A model generated the notes under the pieces. It was given only the letters and a program-made list of their open reading frames with translations. It had not been told where the DNA came from and did not search any database. From positions 62,001 through 126,000 of IMG/VR virus record IMGVR_UViG_3300003690_003472: 64,000 nt of DNA. One strand, 5' to 3'. Origin of the DNA: a virus. The number at the start of each line of letters is the position of its first letter. Positions within the stretch are counted from its first letter, which is position 1. The position numbers and the translations under genes were made by a program. This document shows positions 3 to 64,000 of this stretch, piece after piece.

Positions 3-3000
3 TTTGGAAGCTATATTTACAACAACCTCTACGTACATTTTGGTATACCAAGGGAAGAAGTGGGCGGTATCAGAACAAATCACATTCCGGTGGACTTTGC
101 AGGGTTAAATACTCTTATTGTTGAGCCGATAACTAGTTCCGAAAATCATTTGGGATATGATCCAAGCCAGGGTATTGGTTATGATCAGACTGGCGACGCC
201 CCGCCTTGGGATGATACGCACTATTTTAATAATGATTATATTTATGTTCTGAACAGTGATTCTGATGCTACTCGCCCGGGCGGCGCCGCAGGCTTAAATT
301 CGTTAATACTCCACCGTCAAGGCCCATATGGTTGGCCATCTTGGAAACAGATTAGAGGCGGACAACATCCTATAATGCGCGCACATAAAAAAGAAAATAT
401 TCAATCATTTTTAAAAACTACTATTATTGATCCCATACCCACAGACGCTTGGAAAGGAGTACAATTAAAATCTGTATTTAATCAAGTTGAACCCCCTATA
501 ACTTCAAAATTTAATCCACTTAAACACTCGCTGGTGTATAAGAAATCTAATGATAATTCTCAAAAGCCAATAATAATATGGAACTCTTATGGAAATCAAA
601 AAGGTCACTTTACCGACCCTCCAGATTTTAATATTTCTGGAATTACCAATATTAATAATTCAAACTTTATACACGTTAATGCTGGCAACGCCTCAAACAC
701 ACTCAACCAAGCGAATCAAAGAATATTAATTTATGATACTTTAAATAAATTTCTTTTAAAATCTTTTGGAGGCTATATTTCAGGTGCGGCCAATCCAATT
801 AGCGATATTACAAGTTTAGATATATCGGAAACAATATATCCTCGTGAGCATTATACGTATCTAAGTGGAACCAGATCGCGCCTCGTCTTTTCGAATAATT
901 TTTGGAGAGATTTGCGCGATGATAGAACTCTTACATCTTCTAATGCTAATTCGCAAGGGAATATATTGGAATACGGGTCATCAATGTGGTCCCTTGATGC
1001 AAGAATTGATTTTGCGACTGCACAACCCAACCCTTCAGATTCTACTGGAAAAGAAGGAGAATTACAAAACAATTATAGTTTATTTTTCGATACAGATTAT
1101 CACGACCTTCAAGCTGGTGCGGCTTATATACGCCATGTACCAGAAAGCGCTTCCGTTGGAATATTATATGCAGGAGATACAAAATGGGAAGCAAATACAC
1201 AAGCCGACGTAAATCCATTTTTTAATTCTTTTGAAGAATTTTCAGAAGACACTAGAAGAGTTGGTAAAGATTATGGGATTATACCTGAATTTAGAATTAG
1301 TGAACATATGGAGTTTTATGTTAAGAATAACCCAAAAGCACCAGAAAATTGGACAGTCGATAATGATGGTTGGCTAACATTAACTGGTTCTTCTCCTTCC
1401 GGAAGTCTTGATAGTTCTTTTTATACCATTTATAGTAATAGTGATTTTATGAAATATTTTGAGCCGATTAGAACTGACTATGAGAACACTGCAGTTCCAA
1501 CCACCTTAACGCTAAAATGTAAAGGTATCACTAAGTTTTTACCTTATGATGGTTTTTATCCAGCAGAACGTACGGTTCAACTAGCTCAAATGTTTAGTCA
1601 GTCTTATGGAGTAGGAACAAAAGATCTCGGTACCGGCATGGCATCAAAGATAGTTTCTTTTACGGGGGAAGAAAATTGGAGAACATTATTAACACCGATA
1701 TTCTCACCAGGAATATTATATAATTCAATTAAATCGGGCATGGCAGTTGATTATCCAATTAGTACCACTAATTTTCCGACTATCCGGATGATTGTCACTG
1801 GATCTTCAGAACTTGGCACAAAAGATGACGGCGACCGTCGTTTAAAAGGAACTTTTTATACAAGAATTCCATTTGAAGCCCTCGCATCACCGGAAGTTTT
1901 CTTAAATGGTAAAAAAATTATTGATCTTGAACCACACCCTTCGGCGTCTATTGATAGTACAGGTTCTTTTTATGAACCAGATGATCCATTATTTAAATAT
2001 GCAATGAATAACTTCTTAGCAGAGGTTCCAGCATTCTTTTTAGGTGGCACAGATGGAAAAAACAAGAGCCTGCTCGGCCCATTAAGTACTTTATATTCTG
2101 ATGCAACTGGTGAAAATTCTAAAATTACTGTTGACGGTGGAAAAACATATGTTATGAGAATAATTTGTAGTCATTCTAAAATTACAGATCTACAATCTCT
2201 TAAAGATAATGATGATAGAACAGCCAATTCAGCTTCTTTTGTTTATAATCCGCCCACTATAACATTATATAATCGTTCTTTTGATAGAAGCAAAACAACA
2301 GAACATGGATATTCTGCTTCTTTTGTTGGAGAAAATAATGCCACAGTGGCATATGGCTCTTCTTTTGGTCCTCCTTGTGACGCATCTTCTTCAATCAATG
2401 GTGATGAGGCTAGTTTTGAACCATACACGCCACCCTATTATAATGGTTACAGTCACATAGAATTATCATATACTCCCGACGCAGGCGGCGGCGACGTTTC
2501 TATTAGTGATATTTTGGGTAAAATTGCTGATAGCGAGAGCAGCTATCGAGAACCTTTACGATCTGGCAGTTTATACGCTGGCTCAACAGCCGCTGGTCAA
2601 GGAATGTCTTTGAGCGCATCTTTAAATTATAAACAAGAAATTTCAACCCCCGAAGGACAAAGATGGGTTATTCAACCCAAATGGGAATGTCCCGTATTAG
2701 ATTTTAATGAAGCTTCAATAACGCTCCCAGAATATGGATCTGGCTCTGTTGCAAAGGGTATCTGGCATCAATATGGTAGAATCCCAAAAACCGAAGCTGG
2801 TATATTTATTTCAGTGGAAGATGTTCCATCATCTGAAATAACAGAAGCAAATGGCGCAGAACCATATTCACCTCAAGCAGTTACACAATCTTTAGCACAG
2901 CTGCTTGGATTTAAAGGTTCGGAATCTCCCGATAAACCTCTTAAAATTGGAAAAATACCGGTAGAAGGAAAAACAATATCTGAAGCAATTGTGGCAGTTC

Positions 3001-3878
3001 CATTTGCTTTAAAACAAGGCATTTGTACTAATGAAAAGGGATATTTTAATATACCAGAGAAAACTATTCAATGGGCAAGTGCAATTGTAGAAGGAAAAGA
3101 GATGTTTTTAGATTTTGATATGAAAGCAATCGAACATTTAAAACCAGCACAATCAGTAAAAACCATGGTGGAAATGATGAAAAAATATGTTTTGCCTCCT
3201 AAGTTTGATTTTTTAAATTTTCCGGAAGAGGTTGATCCATTTGCAATGGTGTTTTTTGAATTTAAAATGGATTTAAAACAAGAAGATCTAGTTAATATTT
3301 GGCAAAATTTACCTCCCGTTGCAGATCGTAAAAATGCCCCAACAGTTAAACAATGTGCTAATGCTATTGGAAGTATTGAGCTTGATTTGTTGAGTGGTCT
3401 TGAACAGTTAGATCCGGATCACAAAAACTGGCTTGAGGGTAAACCATACAAAGGGTTTGGCCTATTAAATGAAAAAGCCGTTGATCACGGCGTTACTGGT
3501 GATCTATTAATAAAGTTTCCAAGTGATATTCAGTGGTTAGTTTTTAAGGTTAAACAAAGGGCTGCCACTAATTATTTTGATTTAACTGCTAAAAAAGATT
3601 ATGTAACTAACAAATCTGGAAAACCGTTAATTAGTTATATAGACAAGGACATTCCTCCATGTAGTTATAATTGGCCTTATGACTTTTGTTCTATAGTAGA
3701 ATTAGCAAAAATTGAAAGTATAATAAAACTTGAACCTAAAGTATTTCACGCATTTGATCTAGGAGAGCCTCCTGCCTTTAAGGACCAAACAGAAAAAGAA
3801 GAAGCAACAGACGAGTATGGACCACCAGAAGCCGAAGATCCAGATGAATATTCTGAAGAAGAAGAGGGTGCACTATGA
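3..3878 (+). CDS. Large virion protein, 5' end outside window
   Basis: The reading frame is open to the left edge. A GTG at base 60 could serve as a start, but 19 sense codons precede it in frame, so I treat the gene as truncated on its 5' side. At least 1,290 residues remain. I do not recognise a family. The visible protein is rich in Asn, Ser, Tyr and Pro with no membrane segment or signal peptide, and ends in an acidic Glu-rich tail. It is followed by other oversized proteins of the same style and by fibre-type proteins, so a baseplate-periphery or fibre component is the likely role, from context only. The stop codon is followed after one base by a GC-rich micro-ORF. Confidence 0.7.
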   Translation, partial: FGSYIYNNLYVHFGIPREEVGGIRTNHIPVDFAGLNTLIVEPITSSENHLGYDPSQGIGYDQTGDAPPWDDTHYFNNDYIYVLNSDSDATRPGGAAGLNSLILHRQGPYGWPSWKQIRGGQHPIMRAHKKENIQSFLKTTIIDPIPTDAWKGVQLKSVFNQVEPPITSKFNPLKHSLVYKKSNDNSQKPIIIWNSYGNQKGHFTDPPDFNISGITNINNSNFIHVNAGNASNTLNQANQRILIYDTLNKFLLKSFGGYISGAANPISDITSLDISETIYPREHYTYLSGTRSRLVFSNNFWRDLRDDRTLTSSNANSQGNILEYGSSMWSLDARIDFATAQPNPSDSTGKEGELQNNYSLFFDTDYHDLQAGAAYIRHVPESASVGILYAGDTKWEANTQADVNPFFNSFEEFSEDTRRVGKDYGIIPEFRISEHMEFYVKNNPKAPENWTVDNDGWLTLTGSSPSGSLDSSFYTIYSNSDFMKYFEPIRTDYENTAVPTTLTLKCKGITKFLPYDGFYPAERTVQLAQMFSQSYGVGTKDLGTGMASKIVSFTGEENWRTLLTPIFSPGILYNSIKSGMAVDYPISTTNFPTIRMIVTGSSELGTKDDGDRRLKGTFYTRIPFEALASPEVFLNGKKIIDLEPHPSASIDSTGSFYEPDDPLFKYAMNNFLAEVPAFFLGGTDGKNKSLLGPLSTLYSDATGENSKITVDGGKTYVMRIICSHSKITDLQSLKDNDDRTANSASFVYNPPTITLYNRSFDRSKTTEHGYSASFVGENNATVAYGSSFGPPCDASSSINGDEASFEPYTPPYYNGYSHIELSYTPDAGGGDVSISDILGKIADSESSYREPLRSGSLYAGSTAAGQGMSLSASLNYKQEISTPEGQRWVIQPKWECPVLDFNEASITLPEYGSGSVAKGIWHQYGRIPKTEAGIFISVEDVPSSEITEANGAEPYSPQAVTQSLAQLLGFKGSESPDKPLKIGKIPVEGKTISEAIVAVPFALKQGICTNEKGYFNIPEKTIQWASAIVEGKEMFLDFDMKAIEHLKPAQSVKTMVEMMKKYVLPPKFDFLNFPEEVDPFAMVFFEFKMDLKQEDLVNIWQNLPPVADRKNAPTVKQCANAIGSIELDLLSGLEQLDPDHKNWLEGKPYKGFGLLNEKAVDHGVTGDLLIKFPSDIQWLVFKVKQRAATNYFDLTAKKDYVTNKSGKPLISYIDKDIPPCSYNWPYDFCSIVELAKIESIIKLEPKVFHAFDLGEPPAFKDQTEKEEATDEYGPPEAEDPDEYSEEEEGAL

Positions 3879-3879
3879 A

Positions 3880-3936
3880 ATGCGTCACGCAAAAGACCCT
3901 CGCACCGACAGATTCGCGAATACGCTGCAGCGGTAA
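3880..3936 (+). CDS. Possible 18-residue GC-rich micro-ORF
   Basis: A short frame (MRHAKDPRTDRFANTLQR) starts one base after the preceding stop codon. The stretch is clearly richer in G+C than its surroundings and contains the perfect palindrome CGCTGCAGCG at 3923-3932. A purine-rich GAGGG lies before the ATG, but further away than is ideal. It may be a real short peptide, a leader that affects the next gene, or an untranslated structured spacer. I know no homologue. Confidence 0.25.
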   Translation: MRHAKDPRTDRFANTLQR

Positions 3937-3954
3937 TCTAGGGAGTAATTACTC

Positions 3955-5010
3955 ATGACATTTTTAGATCCAAAAGAACAGGTTATTGATATACAGTTAA
4001 CTTCTTATGGAAGATATACATTGTCGCTTGGAAAATTTAACCCTACACATTATGCTTTTTTTGATAATGATATTATATATGATAGACAATTTGTTACAGG
4101 TACGGCCCCAGAACTTCAAAACAATATTGAACCACGCATACAAGAAAATACGCCGCGTTTAGGTGCCCAAACATTATATAGAGGCGCTCAAGTTGGAGTA
4201 TTTTCAGAAAATGGAGAGCATGTTAATAATTTAATGCCAGGAGTTGTTGCAGCCACAGATAAACAATCATCTGATTTTTTACTTGAAACTCCGGAAAATT
4301 CTTATATTCTTGCAGAGCCTATTGGAAATTCTTCTTTTAATTCTGATAATATAGCAGCTTGGAATGTTGGGTTTCTCAAAGCGCCTCTAGATAGCGCCTC
4401 CGGATCTTGGACTGGCGCCAGCGAAGAAATACCAACAACTTTTATTCCACAGTTAAATTGTGATGTTAAATATCAGTTTAACCTTTATCCTCCAAGCGAT
4501 AAATTAAGTGGAGATATTATTAATAAAACTATAACTGTAATGGAAGGTGGAATAGGAGATGATCCTGATGAAGATCTTGTGATTTTTGGGGATGATTCAT
4601 TTGCGGTATTTGAAAAAGATTATGCACTTTTAAAAGTAGAGGAGGATAATACTCAATTTGTAAAAGACAATCTTGAATTAGAAGTTTATAGAATATTAGT
4701 GGAAGCCTTTAAAGAAACAAAACCGGATGGAACAGTTGTATATCACCCAGAGGTTAAAGAAAAACTTTATTTTACTGATGAATATGCTAGTAACGTAGAA
4801 GATACTAAATTAGTAGAATATTATTTTGATATAGCAACTGATTTTGATATTGATCAGCAAGAATATTGTAGACTTAGAAAACAAAAAGAACACATTAAAG
4901 ACATTTATATTGATCAAATATTTGAATGTGAAGAAAAAAAGTCAACTTTACAATCATTAAATATTTATAATACAGACGAAAATATAGATATAGAGGGGGT
5001 ATGTGACTAG
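3955..5010 (+). CDS. Virion protein with LT-x-x-GR N-terminal module
   Basis: This 351-residue protein begins with FLDPKEQVIDIQLTSYGRY, followed by a Leu-x-x-Gly-Lys-Phe and Tyr-Ala-Phe-Phe-Asp pattern. The same N-terminal pattern opens the protein at 13628, so the two share a module of about 45 residues and then diverge. An LT-x-x-G-(K/R)-x-x-L start is typical of baseplate-binding ends of some tail fibre proteins (established analogy), so this may be an attachment protein. The C-terminal half is acidic and ends with a Cys. The start is supported by GGGAG upstream. The stop overlaps the next gene's GTG by one base, suggesting translational coupling. Confidence 0.75.
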   Translation: MTFLDPKEQVIDIQLTSYGRYTLSLGKFNPTHYAFFDNDIIYDRQFVTGTAPELQNNIEPRIQENTPRLGAQTLYRGAQVGVFSENGEHVNNLMPGVVAATDKQSSDFLLETPENSYILAEPIGNSSFNSDNIAAWNVGFLKAPLDSASGSWTGASEEIPTTFIPQLNCDVKYQFNLYPPSDKLSGDIINKTITVMEGGIGDDPDEDLVIFGDDSFAVFEKDYALLKVEEDNTQFVKDNLELEVYRILVEAFKETKPDGTVVYHPEVKEKLYFTDEYASNVEDTKLVEYYFDIATDFDIDQQEYCRLRKQKEHIKDIYIDQIFECEEKKSTLQSLNIYNTDENIDIEGVCD

Positions 5011-28052: not shown

Positions 28053-28424
28053 ATGAAATTAACAAAAAGGGCACTTAAAAATTTAATTAAAGAAGTATTT
28101 GGTGAAGAGTTTGGTGAAGAAGAAGTTTCCGAATCTAATATTGAATTTTTAGACCGTCAAGCCTGGAAACAAGCGAAAGGTATTCGCGCCGAGAACACAA
28201 CAGATGAAGATCATGAAGCACTTACTGCGGAATTTCCAGATAAAAACATTGTTGATCCGTTCGATGTAAATCAGATAAGAAAAGCAACTCAAGATGCATC
28301 TGAAAGAGACATAATTCCTCTTGGAAAAGTAGAAAATGAAGTTTGGTTTAAAACGGGTGATAATAAGTATGGAAAACTAACACTAGCGCAAGAAGAAAAG
28401 GAATTAACTTTAAGGGGATTTTAA
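28053..28424 (+). CDS. Small protein with basic N-terminal helix (123 aa)
   Basis: The start MKLTKRALKNLIKEVFGEE forms a basic amphipathic helix and is followed by an acidic stretch. A similar opening (LKKILKPLVKQCVKEVLLEE) is present in the protein at 35026. In T4-type phages, short N-terminal helices ending near an acidic L-x-E site target proteins to the prohead core (known), so this may be an internal head protein; that is inference. It abuts the next gene directly. Confidence 0.6.
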   Translation: MKLTKRALKNLIKEVFGEEFGEEEVSESNIEFLDRQAWKQAKGIRAENTTDEDHEALTAEFPDKNIVDPFDVNQIRKATQDASERDIIPLGKVENEVWFKTGDNKYGKLTLAQEEKELTLRGF

Positions 28425-61229: not shown

Positions 61230-62420
61230 ATGATTTTTCAAACGTTTGATGATAAAAAAAATTGTTATGCCATTTATGCAAATAATAAGATTTACTCAAA
61301 AGGCGCACCCTCACGACTGAACCTAACATCGACTTGGGATTATTCTGAATTTCTGAGAGACAAGGATATTTTATATGCAAAATATTATTGTGGTGGAAAG
61401 CCCCTTTCAGAAATATGCCCAGAACATCTTAAGGGAGAGTGGAAAAGTGTTTTTAATAAATTAAAAGCCTTTTATAGATCTATTAACGAGACAAAATTAA
61501 ATTTAAGTGAGCATTGTTTTTATGATATGCTTCCTTCTTATATCTTGTTAGAGTATGGAAAGATTAAAAACAAAATTTGTTCTTATATATTTGAAAATTA
61601 TGAAAAACCATTAGATTATAAATTTAAAGTTGAGCTGACAAAAGTTTTAACTGAAATGAAGAATAAAAAGTTGAATATTGATCTCTTGGCTATGAAAAGT
61701 CGTCGGCATGAGTTTAAAGTTCGTCAGTTCATTAAGAAAATAAAAGAAACACCACCTTTTGTTGTTTATGATGCATGCGGCACAAAAACAGGAAGATTGA
61801 CATCAAAGAAGTTTCCCATATTAACTATGGACAAAAGTTTTCGAAAAATATTAAAACCGAACAATAGCTGGTTTTTAGAACTTGACTATAATGCAGCAGA
61901 ACTTCGTGTGTTGCTTGGCTTATTGGACACAGAACAACCAAAAGAAGATATACATACTTGGAATCTACAAAATGTTTATAAAGGAATTGGAACAAGAGAA
62001 AAAGCTAAAAAAAGAATATTTGCATGGCTATATAATCCCAAATCAAAAGATTACATTTCTAGTCGAGTATATAATCGAGAAGAACTTTTAGAAAAGTATT
62101 GGGATGGCGAATATGTAAAAACATACTTTAATAGAGAAATCAAAGCAGACGAAAAACATGCCTTGAATTATATTGTACAATCAACTGCTGCAGATTTGTT
62201 TTTGCGCCAAATGATCAAAGTGTGGGAATATTTAAAAGATAAAAAATCTTACATTGCTTTTTGCTTGCATGATTCTTTGGTGATTGATTTGCACACAGAA
62301 GACGAGATGCAAATAAATGACATAAAAGAAATTTTTGAAGATACTGAACTAGGTAAATTTAAAGTTAATTCGTATGGTGGAAAAAACTTTAAGGATATGA
62401 AGAGGTTAAACGTAAAATAG
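61230..62420 (+). CDS. polA: Minimal family A DNA polymerase
   Basis: The 396-residue protein has the three polymerase motifs of family A: motif A LELDYNAAELRVLL (catalytic Asp near 219), motif B REKAKKRIFAWLYN (near 256-269, matching R-x-x-A-K-x-x-x-F-x-x-x-Y), and motif C LHDSLVID (near 346-353, with the second catalytic Asp; the usual HDE is HDS). GTKTGRLTSKKFP (near 184-196) is the conserved fingers/palm segment. No 3'-5' or 5' exonuclease domain is present, so proofreading must come from elsewhere or be absent. T4-like phages normally use family B. The ATG is probably leaderless, and the stop overlaps the next GTG by one base. Confidence 0.88.
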   Translation: MIFQTFDDKKNCYAIYANNKIYSKGAPSRLNLTSTWDYSEFLRDKDILYAKYYCGGKPLSEICPEHLKGEWKSVFNKLKAFYRSINETKLNLSEHCFYDMLPSYILLEYGKIKNKICSYIFENYEKPLDYKFKVELTKVLTEMKNKKLNIDLLAMKSRRHEFKVRQFIKKIKETPPFVVYDACGTKTGRLTSKKFPILTMDKSFRKILKPNNSWFLELDYNAAELRVLLGLLDTEQPKEDIHTWNLQNVYKGIGTREKAKKRIFAWLYNPKSKDYISSRVYNREELLEKYWDGEYVKTYFNREIKADEKHALNYIVQSTAADLFLRQMIKVWEYLKDKKSYIAFCLHDSLVIDLHTEDEMQINDIKEIFEDTELGKFKVNSYGGKNFKDMKRLNVK

Positions 62421-63286
62421 TGAAAACAATTATTGGACTCGGGCACGCAGGCTGTAGTATTGTGGACAAGCTCTCATCATATCCACAATACAAAACATAT
62501 AAAATAGACACTAATTTAGAAAAAGCACCTCGTTGTTATCCTTTTCCTAAATATAATCATCCCGAAGAATATGAAAAAAAGTGTCCTAGTTTAAAGGGTT
62601 TTTTTAAAAGTGTAAAAGGAAATGTGCTGTTCATAACTAGTTGCGGTTTTATATCTGCAGCATCCTTAAAAATCTTAGAACAAATTAAAGATAAGTGTAA
62701 TATAAGTGTTTTATATATACAACCTAATAGAACTTTGTTGTCTGAATTAAAATTGTTGAATGACAATACAATTTTTCACATTTTACAAGAATATGCTCGT
62801 TCTGGCTTGTTTCAAAGGGTTTATTTAGTTAGCAACGTCGAGTTGAGTAAAATTATTGGAGATGTTCCTCTTAGAGAATACTATGACAAGTTAAATGAAT
62901 TGATTGCAACAACAATTCATATGATAAATGTTTTCGATAATTCAGACTCAGAGATTAGTACTTTTACACAACTATTTGATTCTGCTAGAATTTCGACTTT
63001 TAGCATAGTTGATTATGAAAAAAATGAAGAAAAAATGTTTTTTGATCTTGACATTCCTCGCGATAAGAGATATTATTATGCTGTGCCTGAAACAATACTT
63101 CAAACAGACAAAACGTTGTTAAAAAAGATTACAGAACAGCTTAAAAGATTGAAGAAAAATGATAAAATAAAGGTTAGCTATGGAATCTTTTCAACAAGTT
63201 ATGAAGATATATACGTTTATGGTCTGTTAAATAGTTCTGTGGTGCAAAATAATAATTTTAGACTTGACAAAGATCTAGATATATAG
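62420..63286 (+). CDS. FtsZ/tubulin-like protein with degenerate GTP loop
   Basis: The 288-residue protein begins IIGLGHAGCSIVDKL (residues 4-18), like the FtsZ T1 loop (G-x-G-x-A-G), followed by a YKIDTN strand. FITSCGFISAASLKIL (71-86) occupies the position of the GGGTGTG glycine loop but has only one Gly. VYLVSNVELSKIIG and a helix ending INVFDNSDSEISTF (about 134-182) match the FtsZ nucleotide-contact strand and the T7 synergy-loop region, and VSYGIFSTSYEDIYVYGLL resembles the activation domain. It may be a filament-forming cytoskeletal protein, but loss of the loop questions GTP hydrolysis. The family call rests on pattern matching by eye. It starts at a GTG overlapping the polymerase stop. 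Confidence 0.6.
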   Translation: MKTIIGLGHAGCSIVDKLSSYPQYKTYKIDTNLEKAPRCYPFPKYNHPEEYEKKCPSLKGFFKSVKGNVLFITSCGFISAASLKILEQIKDKCNISVLYIQPNRTLLSELKLLNDNTIFHILQEYARSGLFQRVYLVSNVELSKIIGDVPLREYYDKLNELIATTIHMINVFDNSDSEISTFTQLFDSARISTFSIVDYEKNEEKMFFDLDIPRDKRYYYAVPETILQTDKTLLKKITEQLKRLKKNDKIKVSYGIFSTSYEDIYVYGLLNSSVVQNNNFRLDKDLDI

Positions 63287-63353: not shown

Positions 63354-64000
63354 ATGTCAATTGATATGAAAAAAATGCGAGAGCGCAAAATCTCTCTAGA
63401 CAACAAAGGTAATGGAAACAATCGTTTCTGGCGCCCTCAAGACGGTGAACAAACTATTCGAATTGTTCCCACTTCAGACGGTGATCCTTTCAAGGATTAC
63501 TGGTTCCATTATAATGTAGGAGACAATCCCGGCTTTTTAAGTCCCAAAAGAAATTTTGGAGAAGATTGCCCTTTGGATTCTTTTGTTCGCAACCTTTGGA
63601 AGGAAGGAACTGAAGACAGCAAGCGCATGGCAAAAAAGCTTTCTGCACGTCAACGCTTTTTCGCGCCCGTATTAGTACGCGGCGAAGAAGATCAAGGTGT
63701 ACGTGTTTGGGGTTTTGGCAAACAAGTTTATGAAAAGCTTCTTAATCTTGTTCTAAATCCGGAATATGGAGATATTACAGACGCCGAAGCGGGTACAGAT
63801 CTTGTGCTTACATATGGAAAGCCAGCAGGAGCAAGTTTTCCTGTAACGCAACTTACTCCGCGCCGACGAAGTTCCCCGCTTTGTTCTGATGGCCCCGAAA
63901 AGTGTACTGAATATTTGGACAACATTCCAGATTTTGAGGAGCTTTTTGCAGGTAGTCGTAAGACTTTTGAAGAGGTTCAAAATATGCTGGACGAGTTTCT
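63354..64000 (+). CDS. gp32: ssDNA-binding protein (gp32 type), 3' end outside window
   Basis: At least 215 residues are visible. The N-terminus MSIDMKKMRERKISLD is basic, as in the cooperative-binding LAST-type region of gp32 proteins. The OB-fold core follows: NNRFWRPQDGEQTIRIVP, DPFKDYWFHYNV, RQRFFAPVLVRGEEDQGVRVWGFGKQVYEKLL, and TYGKPAGASFPVTQLTPRRRSSPL. The zinc-site region reads FLSPKRNFGEDCPLDSF: only one Cys remains where related proteins have C-P-x-C, so the zinc finger is probably lost. It coats ssDNA during replication and recombination. AAAAGG about 13 bases upstream is the ribosome site. The frame runs off the window. Confidence 0.9.
   Translation, partial: MSIDMKKMRERKISLDNKGNGNNRFWRPQDGEQTIRIVPTSDGDPFKDYWFHYNVGDNPGFLSPKRNFGEDCPLDSFVRNLWKEGTEDSKRMAKKLSARQRFFAPVLVRGEEDQGVRVWGFGKQVYEKLLNLVLNPEYGDITDAEAGTDLVLTYGKPAGASFPVTQLTPRRRSSPLCSDGPEKCTEYLDNIPDFEELFAGSRKTFEEVQNMLDEF

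Follow-up and report, generated by a model that had tools for sequence, protein, structure and literature searches.

Between the genes for a DNA polymerase and a gp32-type single-strand DNA-binding protein, a phage contig carries an open reading frame which an earlier note, made from the letters alone, took for an FtsZ/tubulin-like protein with a degenerate glycine loop. Does this protein have the tubulin fold, does it keep what a GTPase needs, and what would it do in such a place? The stretch analysed, here called the window, is 64,000 nucleotides long and comprises positions 62001 to 126000 of a 185,564-base viral contig.

The gene and its predicted fold

The gene, here named tub, lies on the + strand at 62420..63286, starts with GTG and encodes 288 aa. 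Upstream of it is a short family A DNA polymerase of 396 aa (61230..62420, +; PF00476, 3.3e-16), which lacks the 5'-3' exonuclease domain; the TAG stop of this polA (62418-62420) and the GTG of tub have one base in common. The next gene downstream encodes the gp32-type protein (63354..64000, +, continuing beyond the window end; PF08804, 1.6e-15) and is followed in the contig by RecA (contig positions 126109-127269). The one-base overlap and the adjacent gene 32 are as the earlier note described them. The same is true of the motif G-x-G-x-A-G at residues 6-11, which reads GLGHAG within a T1-like loop GLGHAGCS (residues 6-13, 62435..62458, +), and of TSCGFISAAS, which stands at residues 73-82 (62636..62665, +) instead of GGGTGTG. 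The observation as read from the sequence is confirmed.

No usable match to the tub protein was obtained in Pfam, PHROGs or NCBIfam, tblastn found no relative in 50,697 annotated phage records, and a PDB sequence profile search gave no match. Hits to Ribosomal_S4, CLP1_P and phrog_29734 were rejected as noise (E >= 0.016). IMG/VR does contain relatives: scanning with the single sequence gave 41, scanning with an alignment at least 596. The 29 to 97 homologues that were compared have motifs in common at identities down to 34-38%, and family members are 34-71% identical to the window protein. Sub-threshold matches to PF00091 occur in 3/29 members (best E 0.048) and to TIGR00065 in 2/29 (best E 0.012). 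The C-terminal tail is short and variable, and the median dN/dS is 0.11 (112 pairs). The homologues with their common motifs, this dN/dS and the confident FtsZ-fold model described below place the reading frame far beyond chance. The carriers are a large group of uncultured phages, probably mostly aquatic to judge from the marine and freshwater origin of named relatives. One relative (L123; CP070664.1, a WOR-3 MAG) suggested a WOR-3 host, which was rejected as the phage genes are flanked by runs of about 100 N; this polA-tub-gp32 fragment inside a bacterial “chromosome” is probably a chimeric scaffold.

AlphaFold2, run on a 29-row alignment of tub members, gave a model with a mean pLDDT of 92.6 and a pTM of 0.90. 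Its order of elements is that of tubulin: an N-terminal Rossmann-like domain, a long helix H7 (151-173) and a C-terminal beta/alpha domain. When the model was used in Foldseek, 658 PDB chains were matched at E <= 0.001, and the best 50 of these are all TubZ, FtsZ, CetZ or tubulin (TMq 0.64-0.73). The top match is TubZ 4ei7 (E 1.6e-12), the leading TubZ, FtsZ and CetZ matches range from 1e-12 to 1e-10, and identity in the PDB matches listed is 10-19%. In a viral structure library the best informatively named matches were phage FtsZ, cell-division protein or tubulin.

Profiles of 97 tub members, of 21 FtsZ sequences, of 11 PhuZ proteins and of controls were then compared using hhalign. The match to FtsZ reached 86.2% (E 4.9e-6), with everything between T1 and T7 colinear over 172 columns, and that to PhuZ 26.8%; among the controls TrkA_N gave 17.2% (31 columns), UDP-glucose dehydrogenase 0.6, RecA 0.9, gp32 0.1 and PolA 0.3. 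Since the tub and FtsZ profiles are both shallow (Neff < 3), the fold evidence outweighs the profile evidence. The earlier note would have given up its reading if another Rossmann family had fitted better, or if homologues had no conserved C-terminal domain. Neither is the case: a dehydrogenase or TrkA-type identity falls far below FtsZ in hhalign and is absent from the best 50 of the 658 PDB matches, and the C-terminal domain is present and conserved. AlphaFold2, Foldseek and hhalign agree, and predicted fold and profile place the tub protein in the tubulin/FtsZ superfamily, of which it is a divergent member.

The nucleotide pocket and the missing T7-H8 segment

The putative nucleotide residues of T1, T6 and H7 are conserved. 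Each of the T1 glycines G6, G8 and G11 is kept in 94 of the 97 non-redundant members, and two asparagines are invariant (97/97): N139 at the T6 position (62834..62836, +), which hhalign aligns to the Asn of FtsZ IPN, and N159 in helix H7 (62894..62896, +). These two positions we take to be those of the guanine-base contacts in tubulin and FtsZ. Most members may therefore be expected to bind guanine nucleotide via T1, T6 and H7. In the clade L029/L031/L035, T1 is replaced by ALTRPAIN and dN/dS is 0.04; under such strong purifying selection, function in the T1-less members (L029:1500-2330, L031, L033 and L035:6001-6831) would need no canonical nucleotide pocket. T1 is also gone in L341, so two lineages are without it.

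The T4 signature GGGTG[ST]G does not occur in the family. The degeneracy is extreme in the window's clade, where the window member has SCGFISA; over the family as a whole the consensus reads [GS][SCAG]G-x-[IV]-S-G, which resembles the PhuZ T4, GGSGSVIG, and because of this likeness T4 alone is no argument against GTPase activity.

In the canonical longitudinal contact, one of the two halves is contributed by the T7-H8 segment. At the corresponding position in the tub protein (residues 170-187, 62927..62980, +), between the end of H7 and the next strand, there is neither a predicted H8 nor a conserved catalytic acid: the model has no helix from 173 to 191, and from 168 to 186 no acid is found in >= 50% of members. 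In the controls, NLDFAD is invariant in the 18/21 FtsZ sequences where the motif search located it, and the T7 aspartates D201 and D204 of PhuZ are invariant in 11/11. The sequence NSDSE, previously proposed as a T7-like motif, is present at residues 174-178, but its acids are not conserved across the family and the proposal does not hold. The suggestion that the protein is non-hydrolysing fares better. With the T7 acids and helix H8 both missing, as far as the sequence and the predicted secondary structure show, hydrolysis by the tubulin mechanism would not be expected.

The protein resembles FtsZ (TIGR00065, PF00091) in its fold, in the order T1-T4-T6-H7 and in its T1 (GLGxAGCN, close to VIGVGGAGCN of FtsZ), and FtsZ is its best profile match. 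It differs in having only 288 aa, in lacking the T3 GAG, the T4 GGGTGTG, the NxDxxD of T7 and H8, and in its place in a phage replication operon. With PhuZ (phrog_4733, the tubulin of nucleus-forming jumbo phages) it shares a phage-encoded tubulin fold and the form of T4, whereas PhuZ keeps its two T7 aspartates, is a weak profile match and has different gene neighbours; no match of the tub protein to phrog_4733 was found (phiKZ PhuZ control 4.6e-118). TubZ of Bacillus plasmids supplies the top PDB match, but it is larger (~380-410 residues in solved chains) and is a GTPase with a partner, TubR; nothing resembling TubR was noticed in the operon of tub. The tub proteins are distinct from both PhuZ and TubZ and form a divergent family, new within a known superfamily and unusual in its context. 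Reviews describe PhuZ, of the jumbo-phage spindle, and TubZ, of plasmid-prophage partition (PMC7950403; PMC7824862), one of them treating phage tubulins as two distinct representatives (PMC7824862). No published description of the tub family was found in the open literature, subscription journals and preprints being outside the scope of that search.

The polA-tub-gp32 module and the slot protein of sister phages

In the first two scans the nearest upstream gene of tub is polA in 90/102 loci and the nearest downstream gene is gp32 in 104/107. As a guard against circularity, polA and gp32 were also used as queries instead of tub. Where both genes are present, tub was found in 68/68 loci (polA query) and 52/52 loci (gp32 query), these loci having been picked by similarity to the tub lineage's own polA or gp32, with some contigs recurring across scans. 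The search for polA, a tubulin-like gene and gene 32 in relatives, which the earlier note had suggested, therefore finds that arrangement, and the tie to the replication module that it claimed is borne out by the fixed gene order. The two genes polA and tub overlap or lie <= 15 nt apart in 127/224 loci. Pairwise identities of tub and PolA are correlated (r 0.65), which is consistent with vertical inheritance of the two as a unit. By synteny tub has a fixed place in a phage module for DNA metabolism that consists of short PolA, tub, gp32, RecA and 5'-3' exonuclease; such synteny can reflect co-expression alone.

The sister phages have another protein in the same slot. Flavobacterium phage immuto, which has the closest terminase (45%), shows the order short polA, X (151 aa), a 171 aa gene, gp32, RecA, 5'-3' exonuclease and DnaB. 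This slot protein X (P0001-like) has 130-150 aa and the motif HRKKxSNTLYTINALN (L357:1346-1798 and homologues), and its homologues are present in Microcystis phage Mel-JY01, in LR756508 and in at least 591 IMG/VR stretches. Like tub it sits between the short polA and gp32, being upstream of gp32 in 76/80 loci, and yet no homology between X and tub is detectable. The possibility that the 151 and 171 aa genes of immuto are a split tubulin was rejected on sequence and profile comparison, and X as a homologue of the C-terminal domain of tub was rejected as well. A model of X of fair quality (pLDDT 84) had no match in the PDB (best E 0.22). The two proteins were not found together: immuto-type loci have X in 73/73 and tub in none, the loci found with X as query have X in 80 and tub in none, and the tub loci have no X. 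Among whole records, the 10 with tub are all without X and the 3 with X are all without tub.

The short PolA keeps the motif A D, the motif B R/K/F/Y and the motif C D, with HDS replacing HDE. A bacterial-type DnaE is present in eight records with tub, that of the window included; it is complete, with 1141 aa and PHP, alpha and finger domains, in L047:15453-18875 (positions 140453-143878 of the window's contig). Two shorter records with tub are without DnaE and may be fragments. The records with X have no DnaE but a second full-length PolA (~780 aa), and no PolB was found among the phage records checked. Given the DnaE of the one group and the second PolA of the other, the main replicase is probably not the short PolA. 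It fits these data that tub or X goes with an auxiliary short PolA and with gp32, RecA and a stand-alone 5'-3' exonuclease, a set which may fill gaps, mature Okazaki fragments or support recombination-dependent replication.

Several further features of these phages were recorded. In L114 a MazG-like domain (motif YNKLVRDKIP) is fused in frame with the N-terminus of the tubulin-fold protein (779-1954), and the RecA reading frame (2827-4124) is extended at its C-terminus by an HNH-like sequence (LHREIMKARKGVIVDHINGNTLDNRKTNLR) which may be the endonuclease of an intron or intein. Free-standing MazG-like genes are directly upstream of tub in L028, L030, L032, L036, L037, L221, L225, L242 and L275. 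A recurrent N-terminal tag, MKLLFENWRKFL-like, is found in the window's contig at N-termini at 191, 174723, 177290, 180396 and 184138, and a second, MKLTK..LKQLIKEE-like, at 127531, at 170655-173660 and at window position 28053; similarly tagged genes sit between polA and tub in ~10 relatives. Both tags are carried by many otherwise different proteins and are reminiscent of T4 capsid-targeting sequences; the tagged proteins may be a large group of head proteins, internal or ejected. At ~16-38 kb of the contig is a long run of ORFs which, by N-terminal sequences only, resembles sugar or nucleotide-sugar biosynthesis and glycosyltransferase genes.

The proposed role and its alternatives

We consider it somewhat probable that tub is a repurposed tubulin fold acting as an accessory protein, adaptor or short scaffold of the short-PolA/gp32/RecA module, probably nucleotide-binding and non-hydrolysing. 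It would be a nucleotide-responsive or purely structural link between the short polymerase and gp32/RecA, and could act at gaps, Okazaki fragments or recombination intermediates. In about half of the loci polA and tub are coupled in translation, as would suit partners made in stoichiometric amounts. The loss of T7-H8, together with the unrelated small protein in the sister phages, favours an accessory or scaffold over a cytomotive filament like that of PhuZ.

Alternatively, tub could form a true cytoskeletal filament like those of PhuZ and TubZ, static or slow, which positions the replication centre or the DNA, its place in the operon reflecting timing. The complete tubulin fold, C-terminal domain included, the conserved nucleotide residues and the PhuZ-like T4 are in keeping with this, and some tubulin-fold proteins do polymerise without hydrolysis. 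However, half of the longitudinal interface is now a 17-residue link without predicted helix or conserved acids, T1 is gone in one strongly constrained clade, the C-terminal tail is short and variable, and in sister phages an unrelated protein of 130-150 aa suffices. Filament formation is therefore doubtful and this explanation as a whole unlikely, a static filament being possible since hydrolysis-deficient T7 mutants of PhuZ still form filaments (PMC7950403).

Two non-structural roles are much less probable. In the first, a Rossmann-like pocket would sense nucleotide pools, or act on them as an enzyme, and so regulate the polymerase; the MazG-like gene (NTP pyrophosphohydrolase-like by motif reading) directly upstream in several clades, and fused in L114, would suit it, but that neighbour is found in a minority of loci, T1 is lost in two lineages and no catalytic signature was found, which makes it very improbable. 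That tub is a decoy which binds host FtsZ and blocks division during infection is equally hard to credit: its fold and T1 are FtsZ-like and phage-encoded FtsZ inhibitors are known in general, but the fixed polA/gp32 slot at every locus checked is unusual for a host-takeover gene, the FtsZ C-terminal tail is missing, and 34-71% identity to the window member gives no suggestion of a conserved host interface.

It can be proposed, tentatively, that a catalytically dead tubulin fold has become an obligatory subunit of a complex of polymerase, single-strand-DNA-binding protein and recombinase across a phage lineage, evolutionarily interchangeable with an unrelated small protein; if true, this would be the first tubulin-superfamily protein to serve as a component of the replisome and not of the cytoskeleton. 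The interchange of tub and X offers a direct genetic test of the function of the slot. A third, large phage family of tubulins, in a replication operon and without the GTPase switch, would be evidence that evolution has exapted the tubulin fold for a use other than dynamic filaments.
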